Shown here piece after piece: positions 54,361 through 57,808 of a DNA stretch of 64,000 nt. The position numbers and the translations under genes were made by a program. Within the stretch, counting starts at the first letter, position 1; every line of letters begins with the position of its first letter. Under the pieces are notes generated by a model. The model did not search any database. It was not told where the DNA came from and was given only the letters and a program-made list of their open reading frames with translations. Origin of the DNA: Desulfobulbus sp. (lineage in GTDB: Bacteria > Desulfobacterota > Desulfobulbia > Desulfobulbales > Desulfobulbaceae); the NCBI GenBank assembly GCA_009780825.1, contig WQZH01000003.1, positions 62,001 to 126,000 on the forward strand. Direction: 5' to 3'.

Positions 54361-54912
54361 TTACTGCTTGGTGAAGCTGTCGGCAAAGAGTTGGTTGATG
54401 GCATTGATCCCGTCGTCGCTGAGATAACGGGTGCCCGAGCCGGCGAAGGTGTTGTAGCAAATCTTGGGGCTATCTTCTCTCCAGGCCCCTTCCTGCCAGG
54501 TGAACCACTGTCGGCGGGGCTGGTCATAGACGTGCAGCGGCCGGTTGAACAGCTTGGCCAATTCTACTGCCCAGCCGGTACCGCCCTTCACCGAATTGTC
54601 CTCCAGGATGGCGCCGACCACAAAGACCTGGTGCCCCTTATTGACGATATGGAAGATCGCCTGGAGCACCCGGCGGATCTTTTCGGTTTCATAATAGGTC
54701 CGGTTCATCATGCGCGATGCCAGCTCCATGCTGATATCGCCCCGGCGCAAATCTTCCTCGCTCAGGGTCACCGGGTTGCGGTCACGGTTGAGGCGGTGGC
54801 CCGCAAAGGTGAAAATCGCCTCCTGAACTCCATACTTCTCGGCATTCTCGCCAAAGAGGGTTTCCGCCCCCTTCAGTCCCCCATGGTACAGCGTACAGTC
54901 TTGTGCATTCAT
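54361..54912 (-). CDS. Uncharacterised Rossmann-like protein (possible SLOG/YAcAr-type)
   Basis: LYHGGLKGAETLFGENAEKYGV...VGAILEDNSVKGGTGWAVELAKLFNRPLHVYDQ; nucleotide-binding-like Gly-rich motif. Confidence 0.55.
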   Translation of the reverse strand: MNAQDCTLYHGGLKGAETLFGENAEKYGVQEAIFTFAGHRLNRDRNPVTLSEEDLRRGDISMELASRMMNRTYYETEKIRRVLQAIFHIVNKGHQVFVVGAILEDNSVKGGTGWAVELAKLFNRPLHVYDQPRRQWFTWQEGAWREDSPKICYNTFAGSGTRYLSDDGINAINQLFADSFTKQ

Positions 54913-55270
54913 GTCTTGTCCTTGCTCGGCGACGAATAGGTCGTCGCATCATGTTTAAATTCCATTATTTTATTGTGAAACGTACTCTGTGCGACCCATT
55001 GAACCACCCCAAAAAGCACTGGATTGAAACAATTTTCCGGCTGATTTCGGGCGCATACTGAAGAAGCAGGAAAAATATAATCATCCATCTGCCGGACGTC
55101 GAGTATGGCGGCGCCTAAAAGGCTCGTCAAGTGGCTTCTATCACAATTCTCCTTTGAAGGCGTAGCCCAGGCGGGGAAGAGAGCGTCCAAACGCTGTAGG
55201 CGGATTTGAAGAGGAAGGCTATAGTATTAATGAGTACGTTATTCACAGAACACAGACCAGAGTTTTTTCT

Positions 55271-55363
55271 GTCATTTCGACGAGCACAACGAGGAAAAAT
55301 TTATAAATATTTCAGTAAGTTCTCGCGCAAGCCAAGGAGATTTCTCCCTGCGATCGATATGAC
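55271..55363. repeat. Imperfect palindromic element with gtcatttcga / tcgatatgac ends (REP/MITE-like)
   Basis: Terminal 10-mers are inverted with one mismatch; resembles 'GTCATTTCGA...TCGAAATGAC' dispersed repeats. Confidence 0.5.
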
Positions 55364-55508
55364 GAAACAAGGGCTGTTGTTCGGTGATTAATGACCGTAT
55401 TAATAGTTTGCATGATCAATTTTCATGCAATAAACCTGTGTCAGGCAATAAAAAATTTCTTATACAATTGCAATAGATAAATATTGCCGACATAAATGTT
55501 GTTAAAGT

Positions 55509-56182
55509 TCAAGATATATTGATACTAATTTTTATAGCATTTTTAATATTTTTTTTAATTTGATTCAAAGCATAATTATAGTCTCTATAGCATCTCATGT
55601 CTATCTTATTGATTTCTACAATTGGTACTATTTCTTCATTCGCTATCTTGTTAAGTTTATGGCATGCTTTATATAAAATAAGTTTGCATTTTTCGAATTT
55701 TCAAATTCATACGTATCTTTTGTACTTATAAATCCAAGATTTGTTGATGTGTGTATGGCGTGATCTAGTTTTTCTCTCTCTTTTGAATTTATATTTTTTT
55801 TATTCTTCCATTGATATATATCTTGTTGAAGAAAATTAAATAATTTTTCTGACACAGCAAAAAAATCTAAGTCAGATTTTTGACCATAATCTTTCATCCA
55901 TTTATCAGGATTAAGAGAAAAGCCTAACTGTGTGCTACCTGTTAATTTGATATCTATGGCATCTATTCCAAGAGCAGTTGCAATATATAAACGAATTATA
56001 TCGAATAATATTGGTTTTTTTTCTATAATAAAATTAGGTATATTTCCTAAAATATATAATCTAATAAAGCTCTCTATATCATTGTCTGTTGGTTGTATGT
56101 CTTGAGAAATAATCTCAAAAGCATGTTTCGGTCTATTGCCAATTACATGATTCGACCATTTGCTAATCATTGAATTCGCCAT
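55509..56182 (-). pseudogene. Polymerase-beta-like nucleotidyltransferase, apparently frameshifted near 55670-55676
   Basis: IKLTGSTQLGFSLNPDKWMKDYGQKSDLDFFAVSEKLF (GS...DxD). ORF ends at 55643, but frame shift at tatata restores ...LFYKACHKLNKIANEEIVPIVEINKIDMRCYRDYNYALNQIKKNIKNAIKISINIS*. Confidence 0.6.
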
Positions 56183-56194
56183 ATGAATTTTAAA

Positions 56195-56818
56195 TTAATA
56201 TTTATAATTCAATTTTGATAGACGGAATTTAATATATGAAATCCTATTGTAAATTTTATTTAATGATTTATCTGATGGATAACGCGGTAATGGATATTTT
56301 AATAATGAAATTATTGCATATAGAATATCATTTTCAGTAACAATATTTTCATTTTTTATTCTTATATAAGCGGAATTATATCCGTGCATCCTCCATCCAT
56401 AATACGCTAAACAAATATAAGAATAAGCTATTTCGTATTTTGTATATATATTATTTATAGATGACGCTAGAATAATTTCTTTAATTTTTCTATTTATTGT
56501 AAAATTTTTGTTTTGAGTTATTGTTCTTACAAGTTGCTGATCAATTGTACTTGCTCCACTTTTTCTATAATAAAATATAAATTTGAATAATGCTCTGAAA
56601 ATTGCTAAAATATCAAATCCGAAATGTCTGTAAAATCGTTTGTCTTCAGCAGCAATCATAATTTCTATTATATTATTATCTATAATAGAATTTTTTTCTA
56701 TAGCATGCGATATAGTATCAATTAATTTATCGAGATCATTTTTATAAATCAATTTTGACAATGAATATTGTATGGTTACTATAATATTGTTTATATGTTT
56801 TTTATTCTCACGCTGCAT
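56195..56818 (-). CDS. GT51 peptidoglycan glycosyltransferase-like protein (no obvious N-terminal TM)
   Basis: AAEDKRFYRHFGFDILAIFRALFKFIFYYRKSGASTIDQQLVRTITQNKNFTINRKIKEIILASSI matches EDxxFxxHxGxD...GASTIxQQ...RKIKE. Confidence 0.8.
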   Translation of the reverse strand: MQRENKKHINNIIVTIQYSLSKLIYKNDLDKLIDTISHAIEKNSIIDNNIIEIMIAAEDKRFYRHFGFDILAIFRALFKFIFYYRKSGASTIDQQLVRTITQNKNFTINRKIKEIILASSINNIYTKYEIAYSYICLAYYGWRMHGYNSAYIRIKNENIVTENDILYAIISLLKYPLPRYPSDKSLNKIYNRISYIKFRLSKLNYKY

Positions 56819-56848
56819 ACAACATATCTACATTCAGACTACCAGCCG

Positions 56849-57808
56849 TTACGGCTGCCTGGTGGCTTTGAGGAACACCCGCCGGGGCGCTGGATATCCC
56901 TCAACAGTAAGTGCTTGATTATCCCTATCAATGAAATCCTCGTAGGATTCAAAATCCATCCAGGCGGTCCGCCGCTGCTCAGCGCTGCTCATGGCATGTT
57001 CGCAGAACAGGCGGACCTCCCGGAAGCCGGTGCGGACGGCCCAGTTGACCAGGCAGGTTCCGGTGGGCACAAACCAGGTGCCGGGAACCTTGGCATAGGT
57101 GGAGCGGGGAAAGAGTGCCACCGGTTCCTGGCCGGGAAGAGCCTGGGATTCGATGATCAGCCAGCCGCCCGGTTTGAGCGCGGCATACAGGTCACGCAGG
57201 GCATCCAGCGGCGAAGGCCGATGGTACAGGATGCCCAGACAGAAGATGCCATCGAAGCATTCGGGAAAAAGCGGGAGATGTTCAATGCCCAGCGGCTCCA
57301 CCTGGAGATGGCGCTGACCGGCAAAGGCGTTGAGCGTGTGGAAGGTGTAATAGTGCTGGACGTAAGGCTCGAACCCGAGCACCAGCGCCGGCTGGTGATG
57401 CGCCATGCGGAACATGTAATAGCCGTTGTTGCAGCCGATGTCGGCCACGGTTTTACCTGTCAGGTCGGGCAATTCGGGGATGATCCGGTTCCATTTCCGC
57501 TCGCTGCGCCATTCGGCGTCGATGTCGATGCCGAAGACGGAAAAGGGCCCCTTGCGCCAGGGCATGAAGCCGCGCAGAACTTGATGGAGCTGAAGCTGTT
57601 GGTCCGGGCTCAGATCGGTCGAGGCGCCGATGCGGACCACGTCGCCGGAAAAATCGCACGATGAGGCCCGCAGATGGCTCACTGCCTCCATCAGGCGCCG
57701 GTAGCGGAGGAATCCTTTTTTTTCTTGATTGATCCAGGCGGCCTTTTCTGCCAGCGCCGATCTGAGCCGATCGCCGTCGGCCTGGGGGAAGGCTAGAGTC
57801 AAGTCCAT
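56849..57808 (-). CDS. cmoB: tRNA U34 carboxymethyltransferase
   Basis: WRSERKWNRIIPELPDLTGKTVADIGCNNGYYMFRM; GILYHRPSPLDALRDLYAALKPGG. Confidence 0.95.
   Translation of the reverse strand: MDLTLAFPQADGDRLRSALAEKAAWINQEKKGFLRYRRLMEAVSHLRASSCDFSGDVVRIGASTDLSPDQQLQLHQVLRGFMPWRKGPFSVFGIDIDAEWRSERKWNRIIPELPDLTGKTVADIGCNNGYYMFRMAHHQPALVLGFEPYVQHYYTFHTLNAFAGQRHLQVEPLGIEHLPLFPECFDGIFCLGILYHRPSPLDALRDLYAALKPGGWLIIESQALPGQEPVALFPRSTYAKVPGTWFVPTGTCLVNWAVRTGFREVRLFCEHAMSSAEQRRTAWMDFESYEDFIDRDNQALTVEGYPAPRRVFLKATRQP

Follow-up and report, generated by a model that had tools for sequence, protein, structure and literature searches.

Within the 64,000-nucleotide stretch of Desulfobulbus DNA analysed here (the window), an open reading frame on the minus strand (56,195–56,818) encodes a 207-residue GT51 protein without a transmembrane (TM) helix, an assignment drawn from PF00912, fold matching, hydropathy and a family alignment. 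Twelve nucleotides past its stop codon begins a second gene, whose product has nucleotidyltransferase (NTase)-like features. The in-frame part of this partner (179 aa; 55,643–56,182, minus strand) was recognised from a GS-X20-SDLD motif, from its counterpart in Aliarcobacter and by profile (E = 1.6e-74), and three-frame translation against relatives recovers the C-terminal part, including a conserved R-x-Y strand (RCY), in another frame (55,509–55,682, minus strand). The same comparison places a frameshift near 55,650–55,685, which may represent either decay of the gene or an assembly error.

The two genes are the only ones in an AT-rich island (55,250–56,850) delimited by composition and by empty sites in relatives, with GC content falling from ~60% in the genome to 22–33% in the island core (about 55,250–56,850). 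The flank on the host side is a cmoB-like methyltransferase gene (56,849–57,808, minus strand; 65–100% identity in 18 of 22 genus genomes), and the flank on the other side is a conserved host gene of 183 aa (54,361–54,912, minus strand) that follows cmoB directly in 11 relatives at 81–91% identity. This 183-residue gene has no Pfam match and is itself conserved genus-wide, at that same identity, between mnmE and cmoB. The two flanks lie 1,936 nt apart in the window but only about 65–250 nt apart, with no AT-rich insert, at 11 same-genus loci, indicating an insertion of ~1.85 kb with two recognisable genes that is seen in the window genome only; the pair is thus a recent insertion. The insertion borders yielded no convincing repeats, the window contains no tRNA, and promoter and terminator scans gave no matches above chance.

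Transgly (PF00912) is the sole Pfam domain of the 207-residue protein (97.3 bits against a cut-off of 27, E = 9e-28). It has no transpeptidase domain, and its significant sequence matches in the PDB are exclusively GT51 proteins, comprising monofunctional glycosyltransferases and class A penicillin-binding proteins (PBPs). With an AlphaFold model (mean pLDDT 89.5) as query, Foldseek returned only GT51 structures below E = 1e-3, the best being 3nb6 (E = 1.4e-6; TM-score 0.64/0.72) and 3vmt (E = 1.6e-6). The original prediction, made from the sequence of the window, had located both catalytic glutamates in the domain, and this is borne out, as neither E58 (in AAEDK) nor E114 (in RKIKE) varies across an alignment of 17 family members. 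Likewise invariant among the 17 are D59, R61, H65, G67, D69 and R75, G88, S90, T91, Q95 and R98, and R110 and K111. Loss of catalytic residues in a structure-based comparison, named in advance as a finding that would overturn the prediction, was not seen, and a degenerate GT51 is ruled out by the retention of the family-invariant residues and the fold. Judged by sequence, the frame encodes a GT51 protein with every family-invariant catalytic position, for which lipid II polymerisation is the predicted activity. The window genome encodes three further GT51 proteins, all of PBP size.

Ahead of the first catalytic glutamate, the highest Kyte–Doolittle mean over 19 residues is 0.69 and the best sum on the biological scale over 21 residues is +16.0, compared with 2.2–2.6 and −1.5 to +0.9, respectively, for three membrane-anchored PBP controls (one from the window genome, two from the same phylum). 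Hydropathy is therefore far below that of the controls, and the claim that no TM segment precedes the catalytic motif holds. The model places a helix at residues 2–24, at lower confidence, that by hydropathy is not a membrane span. Nor was a missed upstream start found, the other result that could have undone the prediction by adding a TM helix: the open frame comprises 210 codons, just three beyond those counted from the ATG, and 30 nt separate the GT51 start from the end of the upstream cmoB-like gene, so a missed start or hidden TM segment is rejected because the frame is too short upstream. When small GT51s linked to the NTase (n = 15) were scored against a Kyte–Doolittle level of 1.6, 13 fell below it and thus contain no TM-like stretch, the two above being those of loci L023 (1.64) and L025 (1.93). 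We infer that the window GT51 is cytosolic, a location made more credible by the mostly TM-less family and by a separately derived, TM-less GT51-transpeptidase that accompanies the same NTase; from there it might act on inner-leaflet lipid II and be toxic.

The partner resembles nucleotidyltransferases of the Pol-beta type, a likeness suggested chiefly by its GS-X18-21-SDxD motif, in which the G, the S and both D residues are invariant in all 17 members. PF01909 scores 16.4 bits against a cut-off of 21 for one member, 2 of the 17 members give weak matches, and no member passes any Pfam cut-off. A fold model of a relative (pLDDT 93.9) found no significant Foldseek match in the PDB or BFVD, the top non-significant PDB match being the nucleotidyltransferase TUT4 (E = 1.1), with AadA lower; given this result, 'NTase-like' is mainly a motif-based designation. 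Distant relatives of the partner (profile E = 1e-22 to 1e-17) are instead paired, again as two-gene units, with a DUF262/GmrSD-type nuclease (L015:1423–3056; L040; L041:329–1975; L042:4893–6549), which suggests that the NTase is a module whose partner can vary.

The same pair occurs on a plasmid of Aliarcobacter cryaerophilus, where the GT51 is 39% and the partner 36% identical to the window proteins over the aligned parts. A scan of genome contigs with the GT51 alone as query retrieved nothing, and the NTase-like partner as query retrieved 14 loci from several phyla. At all 14, the gene immediately upstream of the NTase is derived from a PBP and in most cases overlaps it; 12 of these genes encode small GT51s and two are of GT51-transpeptidase type, namely that of L026, which is complete, and that of L028, whose transpeptidase part alone is visible at a contig edge. 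Hosts include Desulfobacteraceae, Pseudoduganella, Pandoraea, Alcanivorax, Cohnella, Acidobacteria, Bryobacterales, Parvibaculum and a Bacillota MAG, and one viral contig (L032) also carries the pair, a short way downstream of the phage baseplate gene gpD. Recurrence of the same two genes in so many organisms argues that their association is not due to chance. The pair is rare: in the class (243 genomes), all top GT51 matches but the window's are PBP-sized; among 395 genomes of the phylum, a small GT51 occurs only in the window genome and one other, and a larger GT51 protein in one.

In a maximum-likelihood tree with seven MtgA proteins (a clade of their own, 100/96) and several PBPs, the small GT51s group together (100/99), to the exclusion of both. 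This exclusion of all seven MtgA proteins, together with a TIGR02070 score of 52.1 bits against a cut-off of 182.65, rules out an ordinary MtgA. The GT51-transpeptidase of L026, whose N-terminus is likewise without a TM segment, joins a PBP of the window genome instead (89/76, under the strict threshold), and its grouping with a different PBP rather than with the small GT51s points to two independent recruitments, each with loss of the anchor and coupling to the NTase. This repeated origin is the strongest argument that GT51 and NTase belong together. At L026 (646–3359), the TM-less GT51-transpeptidase (491 aa; transpeptidase 27.7 bits) is followed by the NTase and then by a beta-rich protein with one TM segment, a homologue of the protein that partners the GT51 in E. 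coli prophages, and by this gene content L026 is a three-gene version of the GT51–NTase system. Three NTase sub-clades correspond to GT51 sub-clades; the deep NTase branches are long and without resolution, and both window proteins sit on long branches. Estimates of dN/dS from three GT51 pairs and two NTase pairs (0.10–0.23) show purifying selection on members of the pair. Also in the small-GT51 clade is a 452-residue protein (L035:1258–2616) that by eye resembles an M15-type peptidase in its C-terminal half; the 3.5 kb examined at that locus contain no NTase.

A divergent member of the small-GT51 clade is present in 5 of 5,426 E. coli genomes, in prophages (in a P2-like tail region, or flanked by antiterminator Q and holin) or next to other cargo (L009:7384–8546; L011:7330–8480; L050–L054). 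Each time it overlaps an upstream gene for a small protein with, by sequence, one TM segment and a beta-rich domain; this TM-beta protein is found in the same five E. coli genomes, adjoins the GT51 in five viral contigs as well, and had no match in profile searches of PADLOC models (CBASS included) or PDB sequences. The E. coli GT51s are unaccompanied by an NTase and have a hydrophobic N-terminus, by which they may be membrane-attached. In the annotation of plasmid NZ_CP050167 (L006), the GT51 start is placed so that the hydrophobic N-terminus is left out.

Several loci of the pair adjoin defence genes or sit in a P2-like prophage, as is seen when they are taken one by one. L017 lies near a PDC-S37-like helicase-nuclease (E = 1.4e-168) and a HepT-MNT pair, and has in common with L020 an Mrr nuclease and a further protein (41% identical). 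This further protein of ~320 aa (L017:6760–7740; L020:1084–2043), next to the pair in two unrelated genomes, has no Pfam match and, by eye, a PIN-like N-terminus. A PDC-S02-type Mrr protein neighbours L022, a Tmn-like/YobI ATPase and a dGTPase neighbour L027, and a PDC-M54A-like AAA protein neighbours L029, while L005 is surrounded by Hp1–Hp3, DrmC-like, DUF4365 and TIR proteins. No obvious defence neighbour was seen at L019, L023 or L024. As a control, ten ordinary window genes were compared with PADLOC and drew nothing beyond generic matches to GTPases and methyltransferases, the best at 3.6e-13; weak PADLOC matches therefore count for little, and most of the named neighbours score far more strongly.

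The presence of the pair in unrelated bacteria, often near anti-phage genes or in prophage, favours an undescribed defence or toxin module over a normal wall-building enzyme. Our preferred reading, to which we give not quite an even chance, is a two-gene conflict module (anti-phage defence or toxin–antitoxin-like) in which the GT51 is a weapon under NTase control, with horizontal acquisition as the best explanation of how it arrived. Having lost its anchor, the GT51 would remain cytosolic, with its N-terminal helix and the membrane-contact surface typical of GT51 enzymes probably meeting the membrane from the inside. Cells synthesise lipid II on the inner leaflet and normally polymerise it on the outside (PMC6053597), so an enzyme held inside would meet only the unflipped form. 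Once unleashed, it might polymerise or trap lipid II ahead of flipping, and this capture would stall wall synthesis, tie up carrier lipid and thereby stop growth of the (infected) cell. Zeta toxins drain wall precursors (PMC5923241), and an attack on unflipped lipid II has been proposed for Min-Wnt effectors (PMC12419801). The NTase-like protein would restrain or arm the GT51; the simplest way would be to add a nucleotide to it, as MntA, which adenylylates its toxin (PMC7641770), does to HepT.

Several observations count against a conflict module: L019, L023 and L024 have no evident defence neighbour; PBP2a is much less active without its anchor (PMC4632607), so anchor removal can impair such an enzyme; the E. 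coli members combine a hydrophobic N-terminus with the lack of an NTase; the NTase-like fold has neither a significant structural match nor a passed Pfam cut-off; and the frameshift in the window NTase is hard to square with antitoxin function, unless it arose in the assembly. The fuller proposition, that the pair constitutes a new immune or toxin–antitoxin class in which a polymerase was twice de-anchored and turned inward on unflipped lipid II under a dedicated NTase, joined in some lineages by the TM-beta protein, we hold to be doubtful.

Alternatively, the GT51 could be a sensor, with the cytosolic GT51 (or GT51-transpeptidase) recognising lipid II, carrier lipid or a failure of wall synthesis, the NTase making a nucleotide signal or modifying some other target, and the TM-beta protein, where present, acting as membrane effector. 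At L026 an NTase and a PBP-like protein are joined by the small beta-rich protein with one TM segment, which is consistent with such an arrangement, as is a weak match of one NTase member to the PADLOC Cyclase model (E = 0.0054), but the TM-beta protein is absent from most pairs and matched by no CBASS model, and the catalytic glutamates, needless in a mere sensor, are retained everywhere; we regard this as unlikely. Marginally less likely is that mobile elements carry the GT51 as an accessory enzyme of peptidoglycan or surface glycan, which leaves the cell or attaches to the membrane by an unrecognised route and alters the envelope, for example in superinfection exclusion. GT51 enzymes ordinarily work outside, and the E. 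coli relatives, in prophage cargo positions and with a hydrophobic N-terminus, would suit this role, but most members carry no signal or TM segment, the GT51-transpeptidase variant also lacks an initial TM, and a partner of ATP-type NTase character points to the cytosol. Least likely, by a small margin, is that the pair in the window genome, whatever its role elsewhere, is a decaying insertion with no present function, for although the NTase frameshift, the long branches of both window proteins and the very low GC could be read in this way, the GT51 frame is intact with all family-invariant residues present and a lone frameshift may stem from the assembly itself.

Peptidoglycan polymerases are usually regarded as outward-facing housekeeping enzymes. 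If the conflict-module reading is true, a widespread anchorless, NTase-tied lineage of them, recurring in defence islands and prophages, would represent a new means of halting infected cells, and would offer a natural tool for studying the effects of consuming lipid II on the wrong side of the membrane, at a step targeted by antibiotics.

PADLOC 2.0.0 contains no model that meaningfully matches the window GT51, the NTase or their relatives, and the GT51–NTase system was found in none of PADLOC 2.0.0, NCBIfam, Pfam or the open-access PMC papers searched. With MtgA/SgtB (TIGR02070), the window protein shares a single GT51 domain, the catalytic glutamates and the fold, but it differs in having no N-terminal TM segment, in belonging to a separate clade and in its NTase partner. 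Class A PBPs (PBP1A/PBP1C) share the GT51 domain, and PBP_1a_fam is the best NCBIfam match (96.7 bits), but the window protein has neither a transpeptidase domain nor a TM segment; the L026 variant is a TM-less GT51-transpeptidase. CBASS with a Cap15-type effector is similar in its NTase-like gene and, for L026, in the small one-TM beta-rich protein, which we take to resemble Cap15, but CBASS has no GT51 counterpart and this TM protein matches nothing in PADLOC or PDB sequences. The DUF262/GmrSD units are likewise two-gene units with a distantly related NTase, whose partner is a DUF262 nuclease and not a GT51. The type VII HEPN-MNT (HepT-MntA) toxin–antitoxin, which pairs a HEPN toxin (RX4HXY) with an MNT antitoxin (GSX10DXD; PMC7641770), is also a small operon of an enzyme followed by an NTase-like protein with a GS...DxD motif, but the GT51–NTase pair contains no HEPN, spaces its GS-DxD motif by 18–21 residues rather than X10, and has an NTase of 220 aa that is not minimal. 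GT51 enzymes are thus a known family, and their pairing with an NTase is possibly a new class of system.
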